Positions 807 to 6,419 of a DNA stretch of 6,419 bases are shown one piece after another. The notes under the pieces are model-generated. The model did no database searches, had not been told where the DNA came from, and was given only the letters and a program-made list of their open reading frames with translations. The translations under genes were made by a program, and so were the position numbers. Each line of letters starts with the position of its first letter. Position 1 is the first letter of the stretch. Source of the stretch: Pseudomonadota bacterium (lineage in GTDB: Bacteria; Myxococcota; UBA9042; PHBI01); NCBI GenBank assembly GCA_005788935.1, contig SYAK01000347.1, forward strand, positions 1 through 6,419, in the 5' to 3' direction.

Positions 807-3800
807 ATGAACGCTTCCCAGCCCCCGTCCGCGTCGGTCCGCGCGGTCCGGACAGAGCCGATGCCATTTCCCGTGGGCGCCATCTGGGCCGCCGCCCGTC
901 GCTCAGGCCAGGTCACCGAGGCCTACCGGGGGCTCGAGAACGTCATGCGCCTGATGACGGCCCTCCTGCTCGCGGACGTCCTCGACCTCCCCTGGTACTC
1001 CGAGCTCGAGGAGCTCCTCGCGGGTCACCCCGACCGGCGTAGCCTCTTCAGGATGCCGCTCGGCACACGTCGGCACCTCATCGGCCAGCTCGTGCGAGCC
1101 CACTCTGCTGGCCGCCTCGCCGCCTCGCCGCGTGTCCTGCCAGACCTCGCCGCGTGGTGGGCCGCGGCCGAGCCGCTGCTCGTCAGCGCCGTAACGTATC
1201 GGAATGCGGACATTCACGGGGTCGCCTCGAGTCCGGACGCGCCCGAGGTCGGGCTCGACACGCTCGCGGCCTTCCTCCGGGCCTCACGCTGGTTGTCGGA
1301 CGTTCAGCTCGTCGCTGTCGAGACCCGCGGTCAGCGGCTCGGTGTCTCCCAGGGCTTCGTGCAGCGCCTCATCGGGCCGTCTCCGTTCGACGCCGTGCAG
1401 CATCGGTTCGAGGCCTCCTGGACGCCACGGCTCTCCGATGGGCTCGTGCACATGGGGCCCCGCGATGGCCGGCTCTGGGTCGTGTGTCCGTTCCTGCAGC
1501 TCGAGCGCCGCGGCCTCGCGCTGCTCGACGGGGTCTCCCGTTCTGGAGAGCTCACCTTCGGAGACCCGCTCGCGCTCGACAAGTCGGCCGCGCGCGCTGG
1601 CTTCATGCCGACCCTCGCGGGCGACATCCCGTGGTTCGACTTCGTCGGCCGCCGACGCGAGCTCGCCGAGGGGCTGCGCTTTCGCGAGCCCCGCCCCGAC
1701 CGCATGCTTCAGCTCGAGCGGGCCCCTGGCGAGGTCCTCGCCCCAGGTGAGCTGCTCGACGCCGACCACCGGCTCGTGGCGCGTATCGGGGGCGGGAACG
1801 TCGCCGATGTCTGGGAGGTCGAGGATATTCATTCGAGGGCGCGTTATGCGTTGAAGATACCTCGCCTCGACGCGCTGACGCCAGAGCTCGAGCTGCGCTT
1901 CCGACGCGAGATCGAGCTGCTGAAGCGGCTCTCGGCCGATGGGGTCAGGCGGGTCGTGGGCCCGGTCGAGCGGCTCCAGTTTCAGCTCGAAGGGGAGCCC
2001 GTGGCGGCCCTGCGCATGCCGCTCCTCCCGGCCACGCTGGCGAGTCGTCTGGCGGAGGCACAGCGCAAGGGCGTGGCCCCTCCCGCGGCGTCGGTCCTGC
2101 GCTGGGGCTGCGAGGCGCTCGAGGGGCTCGGCGAGCTGCACGTCCGCGGCCTCGTCCACCGGGACGTCAAGCTCTCGAACCTGCTGCTCGACGCCGACGG
2201 GAGCGTCGTCCTCGCCGACCTCGGGCAGGCGCGCGATCTCCGCGAGGATGCCCGTCTGACGGGCGCCCCGATGCGCCAGAGCAGCGGCGCGGCTGCCGCG
2301 CGTCAGTCCGGGCTTCTGGACGTGCGCGACCTCGCGCCCGAGCAGGTCGTGACGCCCCGGACCTTCACCGACAAGACCGACGTCTACTTCCTTGCCCGCG
2401 CGCTGCATGCGCTCGCGACCAACGGTGGGCCCGGAAAGCCGGGGGACGGTCTCGCGGCCCCGCTCGGGCCGTGGCTTGCGCGGATGGCGAGCGAGGACCC
2501 CGAGGCGCGACCGAGCGCCCGGGAGGCGATGGCGATGGGGCGGGCGCTCGAGTGCCACGCCGCCGACGTGCCACGCGCGGGCTCGCTCGAGGGGGCCTGT
2601 CCGCTGTGTGGCGACCCCGGCGTGGTCGGCAGCCCCTGCCGCCAGCGGGTCTGCGCGACTCGGGGGATCTTCGTCGTCCCGGGCGCACACGCCGAGAAGG
2701 CCCTGAACCTGCCGAGCGACGAACGTGAGCCGCTGCTCGGGAGTTTCGTGGGTGAATTCCTGATCGTCGATCGCCTCGGTCGCGGCAGCTTCGGACGGGT
2801 CCTGCTCGGTCTGCAGAGGCCGCTGTTCCGCATGCGCGGGGCTGTGAAGCTCCTCGACTTCGATGCGTCCGAGGCGTGGGTCGTGAACAAGGTGCGCGAG
2901 TACTTCACCCGCGAGGCGGAGGCGCTGTCCGTCCTGCACAGCCCGAACATCGTCCGGCTCCTGCACGTGGGCGACCATCAGGGGCAGCCGTGCGTCGTCA
3001 TGGAGTACATCCCGGGCGGGCGGACGGTCGAGTCCGAGATCGAGAAGGCGGCGCTCGATGGCCGGGCGTTGCCGCTCTCGGCGATCCGCCGGATCGTCGA
3101 GAACACGGCCAACGGGCTCGAGGCGGCTCACGCGGAGGGGCTCGTTCATCGCGATATCAAGCCCGCCAACCTGATGCTGCAGTCGGTCGCGGACGACCCG
3201 TGGTTCGTCAAGATCGTGGACTTCGGTCTCGCGCGGATGGCCGAGTCGAATGGTCGCAGCACGGCGGTCACGGGGACCCTGCACTACATGGCGCCCGAGC
3301 AGTTCGACGGCGGCGAGCTCGGGCCGTGGACCGACCTCTATGCGCTCGGCGTGATGGCCTTCGAGCTGCTCCTCGGGCGTCGCCCCTTCGAGAGCGAGCG
3401 CACCGATGTCGTCCTGGCCGAGAAGCGTGACCCCGGCTTCGACCCGATGTCCCGTGTGGCGAACCACGATGTCCCGGATCTCGTGTCGGTCTTCCTGCGC
3501 AAGGCCCTGAGCCTCGACGCGAAGCGCCGTTACAGGACCGCCCGCGAGTTCCGTGACGCGTGGCGGCGGGTCGTCGACAGCCTCGCGCAGCGCGGCTCGC
3601 TCACGGCCGACCTCAGTTCGCTCGTGGACCTATCCGATCCTGCCATCCGCGAGCGTCTCAGGGCCCGTCTCGCGCGGCTCGACGCGGCGCTCTCGACCGA
3701 GTCGGGGGAGAACGCGCGGGTGGCGCCGCGCCCCCCGCGTGCTGGGCCCCAGCCCTCCAACATCAAGCTCGAAGACGCGACAGCGATCCTCGCGGTCCAG

Positions 3801-4049
3801 GCGCCGAGGACGATGGACGCGACGCGCATCGCGACCCGACCGCCACCGCTCGCCCACGATCCCGGGCCAGCGTCGCCCCCTGTGCAGCCCGTCGCGAGCT
3901 CCGGGGCCCGGGTGCCGAATGTCGAGGTCCCTCAGCCTGAATGGCCCACCGTTTCGCGGTCCGAACGCCCCGCATGGCATTGGCCGGTCGTCGTGATGGC
4001 CGTGTGCGGGGCGGCCCTCGCCCTCTGGCTGACTTTCGGGGGCCCCTGA
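807..4049 (+). CDS. Membrane-anchored dual Ser/Thr protein kinase with N-terminal HEPN-like module and inter-kinase zinc ribbon
   Basis: This 1080-residue protein likely phosphorylates Ser/Thr on unknown partners at the inner membrane. Residues about 28-170 are helical and carry R-N-A-D-I-H-G at 132-138, a HEPN-type R-x4-H signature; about 175-275 looks like a beta-rich companion half. Kinase 1 (about 323-575) has a glycine loop at 328-335 with Ala for the third Gly, K350, E368, HRD at 451-453, N458, DLG instead of DFG at 471-473, and APE at 510-512. A Cys4 knuckle (C598, C601, C611, C616) follows. Kinase 2 (about 652-915) is canonical: GRGSFGRV at 658-665, K681, E703, HRD at 781-783, DFG at 805-807, APE at 829-831. 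A Pro-rich linker leads to a helix at 1059-1077, leaving almost no tail beyond it. ATG 807 was chosen because the 46 codons back to ATG 669 show weaker third-position G/C and no domain; ATG 861 is an alternative. Kinase identity is certain; the HEPN and zinc assignments are by motif only. Confidence 0.93.
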   Translation: MNASQPPSASVRAVRTEPMPFPVGAIWAAARRSGQVTEAYRGLENVMRLMTALLLADVLDLPWYSELEELLAGHPDRRSLFRMPLGTRRHLIGQLVRAHSAGRLAASPRVLPDLAAWWAAAEPLLVSAVTYRNADIHGVASSPDAPEVGLDTLAAFLRASRWLSDVQLVAVETRGQRLGVSQGFVQRLIGPSPFDAVQHRFEASWTPRLSDGLVHMGPRDGRLWVVCPFLQLERRGLALLDGVSRSGELTFGDPLALDKSAARAGFMPTLAGDIPWFDFVGRRRELAEGLRFREPRPDRMLQLERAPGEVLAPGELLDADHRLVARIGGGNVADVWEVEDIHSRARYALKIPRLDALTPELELRFRREIELLKRLSADGVRRVVGPVERLQFQLEGEPVAALRMPLLPATLASRLAEAQRKGVAPPAASVLRWGCEALEGLGELHVRGLVHRDVKLSNLLLDADGSVVLADLGQARDLREDARLTGAPMRQSSGAAAARQSGLLDVRDLAPEQVVTPRTFTDKTDVYFLARALHALATNGGPGKPGDGLAAPLGPWLARMASEDPEARPSAREAMAMGRALECHAADVPRAGSLEGACPLCGDPGVVGSPCRQRVCATRGIFVVPGAHAEKALNLPSDEREPLLGSFVGEFLIVDRLGRGSFGRVLLGLQRPLFRMRGAVKLLDFDASEAWVVNKVREYFTREAEALSVLHSPNIVRLLHVGDHQGQPCVVMEYIPGGRTVESEIEKAALDGRALPLSAIRRIVENTANGLEAAHAEGLVHRDIKPANLMLQSVADDPWFVKIVDFGLARMAESNGRSTAVTGTLHYMAPEQFDGGELGPWTDLYALGVMAFELLLGRRPFESERTDVVLAEKRDPGFDPMSRVANHDVPDLVSVFLRKALSLDAKRRYRTAREFRDAWRRVVDSLAQRGSLTADLSSLVDLSDPAIRERLRARLARLDAALSTESGENARVAPRPPRAGPQPSNIKLEDATAILAVQAPRTMDATRIATRPPPLAHDPGPASPPVQPVASSGARVPNVEVPQPEWPTVSRSERPAWHWPVVVMAVCGAALALWLTFGGP

Positions 4050-4075
4050 GCCAGCTTCGCGGCAGCCTTGGCGAG

Positions 4076-4093
4076 CCGTGACTCCCCGTGACT
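4076..4093 (+). repeat. 8-bp direct repeat at 10-bp spacing
   Basis: CCGTGACT occurs at 4076-4083 and again at 4086-4093, exactly one helical turn apart. It ends 8 bp before a TTGACA hexamer. Tandem half-sites on one DNA face just upstream of a -35 element are a common layout for activator binding, for example by OmpR-type response regulators. That role is inferred; the repeat itself is directly visible. Confidence 0.45.
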
Positions 4094-4101
4094 GGCACAG
4101 G

Positions 4102-4130
4102 TTGACAGGGCGTCTGTAGGGTGGAAAAAA
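4102..4130 (+). promoter_or_regulatory. Candidate sigma-70-type promoter
   Basis: A consensus -35 hexamer TTGACA is at 4102-4107. After a 17-bp spacer comes an A-run (AAAAAA, 4125-4130) that matches the -10 consensus poorly. In such a GC-rich background both the perfect -35 and the A-run stand out. A transcript from here would carry a leader of about 400 nt before the ATG at 4541. Confidence 0.3.
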
Positions 4131-4352
4131 TCGGAGACGGGATACGGTCAGAGCTTGGCCGGAGTGGCCCGTCCGACCCTGCATGGAGTGGCATGAATAC
4201 TTGGTGCCGCAACGGCCCGCCGCTGCACCCGATGGTGCTCCTCGGAGCTCGCGGCGGCTTGGTACCGAGGCCCGGTGGGCCCGGCGAGCAACGTGTGCGC
4301 GGGGTATCGACCGGGCGAGCGCCAGCCGAGCGGGGAGGGGCCCCGATGGCGT

Positions 4353-4371
4353 CCTTCGCACGGCGCGAAGG
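4353..4371. other. Perfect 7-bp hairpin in the long leader region
   Basis: CCTTCGC at 4353-4359 pairs exactly with GCGAAGG at 4365-4371 around a 5-nt loop. No U-run follows, so it is not a standard rho-independent terminator. It lies within the putative leader of the TPR gene and could be an RNA structure, or a chance inverted repeat in GC-rich DNA. Confidence 0.3.
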
Positions 4372-4540
4372 TGGATCGCTTGCATCGTGGGTGCGTGCGT
4401 TCAGGGGCCGGGGGGGTGCGCGTCGGCGGGGCGTCGACCCGGACAGGCGTCGGCGCCGCACGCAGTGCGTCCTTGCGTCAGGCCGAGGCCTCGACGCGCG
4501 GTTCACCTGACATCGGACAATCGAGCGAGGGCGAGCGGAC

Positions 4541-5575
4541 ATGCATCACCACCTAAGGAACGGTCTGGCTTGCGTGATGGCGGTCGTCGTGTGCATGCAG
4601 GCTGGGCGGCCGGCGCTCGCGGCGCTGTCCGCCGAGCGGGAGGCCGAAATTCGGGCGCTCGTCGAGGAGGCGCGGGTGCATCGCGCGGCGGGTCGCTTCG
4701 ATCAGGCGATCGCGGCGCTGCAGCGGGCGCTCGACATCCAGGCGGCGCCATGGTTGCTCTTCAACGTCGGCCGTGTCCGTGAGGTCGCGGGTCACCACGA
4801 CCTCGCCCGCCGCCACTATGAGCTCGCCGCGACCGCGGAGGATGACGCGGAGACGCGGCGGAAGGCGCTCGAGGGCGTCCGCCGGGTCGACGCGCTCGCG
4901 CCGCGCGGTGTGTTGCGTCTCCGGGTCGCCTTTCCAGCGGGAGCCGGAGAGGGCGGTGAGCCGACCGAAGTCCGGATCGACGGACACGTCTGGGAGCCGC
5001 GACTCGGGCGGGACTTCAACCTCGCGCGCGGCCAGCACGTCGTTGAGGTCACGGCGCCCAGCCTCGCGCCGTGGCGCCAGTCCGTCGAGCTTGGTGAGCT
5101 GCTGGTCGTCGAGGCCCGCCTCGCGCGGGAGGGCGAGGCCCCGCCGGCTCCGGTGGACACCCCCCCCGTCGCGCCCTCTCCCGTTCCCTCCACGCCGGCC
5201 CCGCTGGTTGGCCCGGGGGTTCGGGTCGTCGAGCCAGCCAGCGCCTCCGAGGCGAACGCCTGGTTGCCCTGGACGGTCTTCGGGGCGGGTGTCGCTGGCG
5301 CTGGCGTGGGTCTCTACCTGCTCGTCGACGGCGCACGGGATTGGGACCGCGTCAGCAGCGCCCCCGCGGACGCCTTCTTTCAGGACGAAGCACAGGCCAT
5401 CGTCGACGCGGGTGCCGAGAAGAAGGAGCTCGGCACCATCGCCGTCATCGCCGGTGGCGGGCTCGCGGTCGGAAGCCTCCTGTGGGTGGTCTTTGGCGCC
5501 TCCGAAGGACAGGCCACGGTCGCCCCGGTCGCTGGCCGCGGCGTGGCGGGTCTCGAGGTCTCGGGTCGCTTCTGA
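4541..5575 (+). CDS. Exported TPR protein with PEGA-like segment and two C-terminal hydrophobic helices
   Basis: The protein has 344 residues. Residues 1-27 look like a Sec signal peptide: a positive start, a hydrophobic core and an ALA cleavage site after A27. Two TPR-like repeats follow at about 39-104 (AGRFDQAIAALQRALDI, then a W71-to-T98 helix pair), a fold that usually binds protein partners. Residues about 123-195 look like a degenerate PEGA-type beta domain, with an RIDG turn at 145-148. A Pro-rich linker spans about 199-226. Hydrophobic, Gly/Ala-rich helices at about 244-262 and 297-318 flank a polar 34-residue loop, and the chain ends in a short tail. A GAGG at 4527-4530, 10 nt upstream, supports ATG 4541; ATG 4577 is in frame but would shorten the signal peptide. 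The TPR-PEGA pattern is common in myxobacterial envelope proteins of unknown function. The gene lies in the same direction as the dual kinase, but the 491-bp gap argues for its own promoter. Confidence 0.85.
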   Translation: MHHHLRNGLACVMAVVVCMQAGRPALAALSAEREAEIRALVEEARVHRAAGRFDQAIAALQRALDIQAAPWLLFNVGRVREVAGHHDLARRHYELAATAEDDAETRRKALEGVRRVDALAPRGVLRLRVAFPAGAGEGGEPTEVRIDGHVWEPRLGRDFNLARGQHVVEVTAPSLAPWRQSVELGELLVVEARLAREGEAPPAPVDTPPVAPSPVPSTPAPLVGPGVRVVEPASASEANAWLPWTVFGAGVAGAGVGLYLLVDGARDWDRVSSAPADAFFQDEAQAIVDAGAEKKELGTIAVIAGGGLAVGSLLWVVFGASEGQATVAPVAGRGVAGLEVSGRF

Positions 5576-5594: not shown

Positions 5595-6419
5595 TCAGTC
5601 GATATAGACCGGCGTGAGCGAGGGCTTGGCCGTGGCCGGCTGTTCCGCCGCGGGCTTCGTGGTGGCGGTCGGACGAGGCGGCGCTGTCCGCCGGACGGCG
5701 AGGGGCTCGAGCTGCCGCTCGAACGCGGACGTGTCAGCCGTGACGTCGAGGTCGTGGCGCAGCGTGCGGTAGCCGGGCGCCTCGAACTCGAGCGTGAGCC
5801 GCGTCCCGGGCGGGGCCTGAAGCTCGACAGGGGTCATGCCGCGCGCCACGCCGTCGACCCGCAGTCGCGCCCCGGGTGGCCGCGAGCGCACCACGAAGCT
5901 CCGGGGCGTCTCCACCGGTGGCGGCGTGGGAGGCGGTGACGCCGGGACTGCGGCCGGAGGCGGAGCGGGCGCAGGAGTGGCCGGTGTGGCCGGTGCGGCC
6001 GGTGCGGCGGGCGGGGTGGGTGTTGGCGGCCTGGCCGAGTCGTCGCGCGGGGTCGCGGCAAGACCTGGGCTCTCGACCACGCCGGCCGCGGCGCGCGATT
6101 CGCCGTCGGCCTCCAAGGCATCGCGACCTGACCCGCGCACGAAGGCGGCCCCGAGGGCAGCCAAGGCGACTGCGGCTGTCGCGGTCCACCACAACCACTG
6201 CCGCCTGGCCATTCGGGAACCGGCCGCCGCATTGGAGCCGGGCAAGGGCGCTGCGCTTCCAGCCCGGTTCGAATCGGTGAGGGGGGCCGTCCCGAGGTGG
6301 CTGCTCGGGGCCGCGCCCCCCGTTCGAGCCGCGGCGAGCAGCTCCGCGAGGCGCTGCGGCCCGACGAGCGCGCTGAGGTCTGTCGAGGCGGCGCGTCGGG
6401 TCCCGAGGGCCTCGAACAG
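5595..6419 (-). CDS. C-terminal part of a membrane-anchored Ser/Thr kinase-type protein with PEGA domain (5' end beyond window)
   Basis: The reverse-strand frame is open from the right edge to the TGA at 5597-5595, giving 274 visible residues with the N-terminus missing. The first residues (LFEALGTRRAASTDLSALVG) resemble the segment just after the catalytic domain in myxobacterial kinases; the dual kinase here has a similar DLSSLV stretch after kinase 2. A transmembrane helix lies at visible residues 74-94 (WLWWTATAAVALAALGAAFV, 6197-6138), preceded by basic RR, so the N-terminal side should be cytoplasmic. Next comes a Pro/Ala/Thr-rich linker, then a good PEGA domain at about 174-241 (PPGARLRVDGVARGMTPVEL and a later PGYR), and a Thr/Pro/Lys tail. 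PEGA domains in such kinases are generally placed outside the membrane, possibly contacting the envelope. The kinase domain itself is not visible, so that part is inferred from architecture. A TTG at 6245 is a possible but unlikely internal start. Confidence 0.8.
   Translation of the reverse strand: MFEALGTRRAASTDLSALVGPQRLAELLAAARTGGAAPSSHLGTAPLTDSNRAGSAAPLPGSNAAAGSRMARRQWLWWTATAAVALAALGAAFVRGSGRDALEADGESRAAAGVVESPGLAATPRDDSARPPTPTPPAAPAAPATPATPAPAPPPAAVPASPPPTPPPVETPRSFVVRSRPPGARLRVDGVARGMTPVELQAPPGTRLTLEFEAPGYRTLRHDLDVTADTSAFERQLEPLAVRRTAPPRPTATTKPAAEQPATAKPSLTPVYID
5977..6012. repeat. 9-bp tandem repeat encoding a Pro-Ala-X linker
   Basis: There are four near-copies of GTGGCCGGT: two exact (5977-5985, 5986-5994), one with a single change (5995-6003) and a more diverged fourth (6004-6012). 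On the reverse strand they encode three-residue steps of the PAA/PAT type in the linker between the transmembrane helix and the PEGA domain. Slippage at such repeats could change linker length in frame. Confidence 0.6.

Follow-up and report, generated by a model that had tools for sequence, protein, structure and literature searches.

The portions of PMC3710099 drawn on here place the HEPN motif where helix 3 ends or where the loop towards helix 4 begins, and describe an insert separating helices 2 and 3 as well as an acidic motif, Ex3[KR], in helix 2. The same portions describe the KEN domain of Ire1 and RNase L as a HEPN domain fused to a kinase; it is circularly permuted and lies C-terminal to the kinase, and a fusion to ankyrin is also described. 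The locus analysed here is a 6,419-nucleotide stretch of DNA, positions 1 to 6,419 of contig SYAK01000347.1 (assembly GCA_005788935.1; hereafter, the window), in which a single open reading frame encodes a protein joining a HEPN-like module to two Ser/Thr kinases. From the N- to the C-terminus, the chain is composed of the HEPN-like module, a beta region, kinase 1, a Cys4 ribbon, kinase 2, a proline-rich tail and a hydrophobic helix. Comparison of sequences establishes this domain order and shows that the HEPN motif is conserved, that in the close relatives the partner of the module is kinase 1, and that the Cys4 ribbon with kinase 2 is a cassette of separate derivation. The features of the protein are as follows.

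807..4049, + strand: whole open reading frame, 1080 amino acids, from the list of reading frames; database protein P0002 matches it from residue 19 at 100% identity (rounded by the search)
861..1301, + strand: HEPN-like helical domain, residues 19-165; helices in the model, conserved in 63 modules
936..950, + strand: E44-x3-R48, fitting the HEPN helix-2 acidic motif Ex3[KR]; [ED]x3[RK] in 48 of 63 modules
1200..1217, + strand: R132-N133-A-D-I-H137 closing helix 3, a predicted Rx4H motif of HEPN RNases
1302..1760, + strand: beta-rich region, residues 166-318; strands in a low-confidence part of the model, conserved together with the HEPN part
1761..2537, + strand: kinase 1, residues 319-577; Pkinase and kinase profile matches, third glycine replaced by alanine, DLG, altered activation segment, catalytic K, D and N kept
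2586..2741, + strand: Cys4 ribbon (C598, C601, C611, C616), head of kinase 2; a head shared by all 20 kinase loci fetched
2751..3551, + strand: kinase 2, residues 649-915, canonical; Pkinase match, nests among Cys4 kinases with local support 0.936
3552..3971, + strand: proline-rich tail of low conservation, residues 916-1055; 24-42% identity between relatives, predicted local distance difference test (pLDDT) scores mostly below 50
3975..4037, + strand: predicted tail anchor formed by a hydrophobic helix at the C-terminus, residues 1057-1077; low-confidence model and hydropathy

In the relative P0004, 10 of 13 aligned residues within residues 1-18 are identical, which speaks for the start at 807. 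The database record of the window protein, P0002, begins at residue 19, and an upstream ATG at 669 would lengthen the protein to 1126 amino acids. Two stretches of the protein are matched by Pfam Pkinase (whole-protein E 2.5e-60), the ribbon gives a weak zinc-binding match (E 0.41), and residues 1-320 gave no Pfam match at E <= 1. The structure model of the full chain is of low confidence (pLDDT 47.5). An earlier sequence-only reading of this stretch had proposed a HEPN-like module, two unlike Hanks-type kinases, a Cys4 knuckle and a membrane anchor within one polypeptide, and all of these are present in the 1080-residue frame. The terminal helix, placed by the low-confidence model at residues 1058-1077, is strongly hydrophobic, the best 19-residue hydropathy near the C-terminus being 2.09 in the window protein, 2.13 in the relative P0003 and 1.88 in P0004, the last falling just below the cut-off of 1.9. 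Because this helix ends 3 residues before the stop, the chain looks tail-anchored, without an outside domain. The near-terminal helix and the kinases suggest that the bulk of the protein faces the cytoplasm.

The HEPN-like module

Its motif, the position of that motif and weak profile matches make the helical N-terminal part a probable HEPN domain. In the model, helices span residues 22-33, 36-58, 65-70, 77-81, 85-102, 115-136, 145-159 and 161-165, with pLDDT blocks of ~62-89 across residues 31-160 and of ~29-40 past residue 170. The HEPN form Rx4-6H, with a polar residue after the arginine, is seen as R132-N133-x3-H137 within RNADIHG (residues 132-138), which is the R-N-x3-H-G signature remarked on in the sequence-only reading. 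In the predicted model, from which alone this placement is read, the motif lies at the end of helix 3 and residues 65-102 form an insert between helices 2 and 3. E44-x3-R48 corresponds to the helix-2 acidic motif, which is common, though not universal, among HEPN domains.

Sixty-three modules were collected by two profile rounds over the open frames of fetched loci rather than whole genomes; these frames run from stop to stop and do not fix gene starts or gaps. Conservation in the aligned columns is 94% for the arginine, 76% for the asparagine and 84% for the histidine, and the three occur together in 47 of the 63 modules (one with a longer spacer), leaving 16 without. The 63 module-bearing proteins (55,677 residues) contain 47 RN...H strings, and the motif is beyond chance because 46 of these share one aligned column, with a single string elsewhere. 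A further alignment (A9) holds 41 of 61 extracted modules, the 20 omitted being 11 without the exact motif and nine near-duplicates or close relatives. Its invariant arginine is biased by these omissions, and the figures are therefore taken from all 63. The motif was found in 25 of 28 modules with a kinase and in 22 of 35 without (Fisher 0.021), a difference that is not used as evidence because 10 of the 25 come from one group of similar proteins and relatedness was uncorrected.

Pfam families weakly matched by more than one of the 41 modules were exclusively HEPN (best E 0.0039), the nearest models being HEPN_RiboL-PSP, HEPN_MAE_28990 and HEPN_Swt1; among these 41 modules, no Pfam HEPN model was matched at E < 0.001. 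Alignment of the module to HepT-like by hhalign gave P 0.0039 and a probability of 8.6%, above controls. Other known families were rejected for the helical part, as every non-HEPN Pfam match was confined to one of the 41 modules; these include Retrotrans_gag at E 0.00051. PDB sequence searches with A2, the N-terminus and A9 returned nothing, or unrelated chains at E 0.08 and above, and Foldseek on the N-terminal model led nowhere. Motif, position and profile matches together back the HEPN-like call of the sequence-only reading, which had cast the module as a sensor; the conservation of a catalytic-type motif favours an output or a dual role over that of a sensor.

Two kinases and a recurring HEPN-kinase unit

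The kinase boundaries were set by the kinase profile. Kinase 2 is of Hanks type by its Pkinase match and canonical motifs: GRGSFGRV, AVK (679), HRDIKPAN (781), DFG (805) and APE (829). Kinase 1, the second Pkinase stretch, is likewise of Hanks type in K350, D453, N458 and D471, and its motifs are GGGNVADV, K350, HRDVKLSN (451), DLG (471) and APE (510), so that GGGNVADV and DLG replace the canonical GxGxxG and DFG. The two kinases are thus as unlike as had been proposed. The altered glycine loop is indeed present, but its alanine is not peculiar to this protein, being common to all six close relatives. K350, D453, N458 and D471 are invariant across the same six, and DFG is retained in kinase 1 of P0004, P0005, P0053 and P0054. 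Kinase 1 is nearest to canonical in relatives with a single kinase, P0004 takes a middle position, and P0001 and P0003 show the greatest alteration, a gradation that would be expected if kinase 2 had relieved kinase 1. Identity to P0003 is 77% for kinase 1 and 85% for kinase 2, and to P0004 55% and 66%, respectively; the HEPN and beta parts are conserved about equally to kinase 1.

Residues 1-640 were searched against ~5.8 billion proteins, with 7996 candidates scored. Of the 51 proteins at E <= 0.001, P0002-P0005 reach a query coverage of 89% or more, and none of the rest exceeds 46%. This search found the full domain order in two other proteins, P0003 and P0004. P0005, together with P0053 and P0054 from a second protein search, has the N-terminal module and kinase 1, with an FGE-sulfatase domain in place of the second half. 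By these sequence comparisons the recurring unit is the HEPN domain, beta region and kinase 1, and relatives exchange the second half for FGE-sulfatase or other domains. When the N-terminal part of the second protein with two kinases was used as query, one homologue was returned, 98% identical.

The second half has relatives of its own. All 52 genomes searched with a profile of ribbon and kinase 2 gave matches at E <= 1e-30, although many of these matches span the kinase only. In all 20 kinase loci fetched from the longer match list, a Cys4 ribbon directly precedes the kinase and the frame portion has one HRD motif; no RN...H lies ahead of the Cys4 kinases in these 20. The ribbon, which the sequence-only reading had taken to split the two kinases, is instead the usual N-terminal head of the kinase 2 family, and an inserted zinc switch between the kinases was rejected.

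A kinase tree was built from 50 domains (FastTree, local supports, midpoint root; 5 near-identical proteins omitted). Three kinase-2 domains fall inside a clade holding all 20 Cys4 kinases (support 0.936), and kinase 1 clusters with the kinases of other HEPN-module proteins, with support 0.973 for six close relatives and 0.978 for nine. Since HEPN with kinase 1 occurs without kinase 2, and Cys4 with kinase 2 occurs without HEPN, the window protein is most simply read as a fusion of a pre-existing HEPN-kinase with a Cys4-kinase; on the tree and the domain distribution, the second kinase joined later by gene fusion. The three-step relay that had been read from the domain order does not stand as such, the two halves being separate units.

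Two kinases are present in four of the 63 module proteins. The fourth, L056, has its second kinase outside the Cys4 clade, as the sister branch of that clade; a single cysteine lies between its two kinases, and its motif is a variant, RKREEGH. Dual kinases therefore probably arose twice. The kinases of other module proteins form no single clade, which makes repeated joining of the module to kinases probable.

Distribution and gene neighbourhood

A first genome scan (query A2) found no relative. A second found L001, a contig of a metagenome-assembled genome, in whose protein the module and a single kinase precede a hydrophobic segment; the C-terminus of L001 is presumably TonB-like, from its appearance, and gave no such Pfam match. 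The other match, L002, covers only residues 311-380. With profile A7, the module was found in 7 of 377 genomes of one phylum (five candidates scored per listed genome), and with profile A8 in 19 of the 52 genomes of one class and 27 of the 317 of another; in the phylum of a Kitasatospora genome it was found in 1 of 149. The figures for the two classes are probably undercounts, only some candidates per genome having been scored. A viral or plasmid origin was rejected: six patterns found no relative in viral contigs, and no place on a plasmid matched over 80% of the query.

The partners of the module include kinase, GGDEF, NACHT and FGE domains. It lies on one chain with a NACHT-type NTPase in L055:18017-19900 (+) and with FHA and GGDEF domains in L089:1621-4434 (+). 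In L094:718-6795 (+), two adjoining frames on the same strand each combine a HEPN module, a kinase and TPRs. In L053:4212-7373 (-) the module (RNGVAH) is followed by a region that resembles an eroded kinase by eye, without a Pfam match. The order is reversed in L103:3849-7142 (-) and nine similar proteins (frames of ~1050-1210 amino acids), where the kinase is N-terminal and the module, with an RNSFAH-like motif, is C-terminal, an order closer to Ire1. L048, L049, L051, L052 and similar proteins have a hydrophobic segment and no detected kinase, and have lost RN..H (e.g. RRELMY), which suggests a non-catalytic derivative of the module.

Among the papers listed from one open-access library, no title or abstract describes this bacterial HEPN-module kinase family. 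The sequence-only reading would have fallen to a described, widespread family with this domain order; none emerged from one protein collection and this library. The front half apparently belongs to an undescribed family that repeatedly pairs HEPN-type domains with kinases.

The window contains three other reading frames.

3-641: partial open reading frame
4541-5575: TPR protein
5595-6419, - strand: partial PEGA-domain protein, C-terminal part, cut by the window end; from its tail, at a guess, possibly another Ser/Thr kinase

None of these three has a PADLOC match, and the PADLOC matches of the window protein fall on its kinase domains. Around the relatives, the neighbourhood scan comprised 8 selected frames from four loci, three of the eight being without a match. 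In L010:3352-9060 (-), the module frame (5431-7809) is flanked on the same strand by frames for Cmr6 (7813-9060) and Cas6 (3352-4530); it encodes a HEPN module, a hydrophobic segment and an FGE-sulfatase domain without a kinase, and may possibly be an undescribed type III CRISPR accessory. Three of five other L010 frames scanned had no match. An MkoA-like protein (L013:13954-16965 (+), PADLOC E 4.7e-76) is encoded ~2.5 kb from a HEPN-kinase gene, the module gene of L011 adjoins a gene with weak Avs2 similarity, and the only match of the L012 neighbour is a HEAT-repeat model. A phage-linked trigger, which had been offered as conceivable, is possible; the window's other frames give no sign of one, and the Cmr6-Cas6 setting is that of one relative, L010.

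Candidate mechanisms and comparison with known systems

Our preferred, though tentative, reading is of a tail-anchored, cytoplasm-facing protein in which an HEPN RNase-type module is joined to two Ser/Thr kinases to form a kinase-gated RNase. Domain layout and sequence conservation both point this way. The HEPN domain would cleave RNA when dimerised, and kinase 1, on the same chain, would gate it through dimerisation and phosphorylation, by analogy with Ire1 and RNase L. Canonical catalysis may have been assumed by the fused Cys4-kinase 2, with kinase 1 drifting to a regulatory role in which its glycine loop, DLG and activation segment changed and its catalytic residues persisted. Through the tail anchor, the RNase would sit at the inner face of the membrane. 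As the protein lacks a periplasmic domain, its trigger would arise in the cytoplasm or act via the ribbon of kinase 2.

A possible but less probable alternative retains a relay with the HEPN domain on the input side, where as a sensor, or by binding RNA or a nucleotide, it would act on kinase 1; kinase 1 would phosphorylate kinase 2, and kinase 2 an outside target. The varied partners of the module are as might be expected of a shared input, one module subgroup has lost RN..H, and kinase 2 is canonical. However, the catalytic-type motif is conserved in most modules (47 of 63), those of the window protein and its five close relatives among them, which exceeds what binding would need; and, as the two kinases derive from separate groups, there is no ancestral relay.

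It is unlikely that the protein is an anti-phage or stress suicide effector, in which signals of infection or damage would pass through the kinases to a HEPN RNase acting on host RNA. The Cmr6 and Cas6 genes of L010 and the MkoA-like and weakly Avs2-like neighbours would suit such a role, as would the recurrence in conflict systems of HEPN domains (in the portions of PMC3710099 used) and of FGE domains, named as effectors in part of PMC8195603; the window's own neighbours, the small neighbour scan and the confinement of PADLOC matches to the kinase domains all speak against it. Less likely again is that kinase 2 works alone as an ordinary membrane-tethered Ser/Thr kinase, with kinase 1 a dead scaffold and the HEPN domain a degenerate dimerisation arm. 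The altered motifs of kinase 1 and its lower conservation relative to kinase 2 would be explained, but not the invariance of K350, D453, N458 and D471, nor HEPN and beta parts conserved about as well as kinase 1.

Should the HEPN module be an active RNase, a bacterial family of kinase-RNase fusions would be at hand, in which Ser/Thr kinase signalling acts directly on RNA, and the origin and logic of Ire1-like control could be tested outside eukaryotes. A broader and more doubtful proposal is that a bacterial HEPN family has been wired repeatedly to kinases as membrane-bound, phosphorylation-gated RNases, an independent counterpart of Ire1 and RNase L, with a second, active kinase here driving a pseudokinase-like first. 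The analysis in any case defines a module without a Pfam model, whose partners are typical of signalling and conflict systems.

Similarity to PglW, MAD6 and PD-T4-6 is limited to generic kinase-domain resemblance, and membership was rejected; NCBIfam scores for PglW and MAD6 (102.7 versus 990 bits and 162.4 versus 460 bits) are far below the cut-offs. Cys4-headed Ser/Thr kinases of a related bacterial class (L148-L167) share the cassette of ribbon and kinase 2, but have one kinase motif in the frame portion and no RN...H ahead of it. The HEPN, beta region and kinase are shared with proteins in which FGE-sulfatase replaces Cys4 and kinase 2 (P0005, P0053, P0054, L012 and L088). In common with the HEPN superfamily, the module closes helix 3 with Rx4H, the second residue of which is polar, carries Ex3R in helix 2 and has an insert between helices 2 and 3; it differs in its extra conserved beta region and in its recurrent bacterial Ser/Thr kinase partner, a pairing absent from the portions of PMC3710099 used here. 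Ire1 and RNase L likewise combine a Ser/Thr-type kinase and a HEPN RNase-type domain on one chain, and Ire1 too is a membrane protein, one with a luminal sensor. In the window protein, by contrast, the HEPN domain is N-terminal (residues 19-165) with two kinases after it, rather than C-terminal to the kinase; the membrane helix, 3 residues from the C-terminus, leaves no outside domain, and no ankyrin match was found in Pfam. As domain order and sensor both differ, the window protein is not a member of the Ire1/RNase L family but is Ire1-like in logic.

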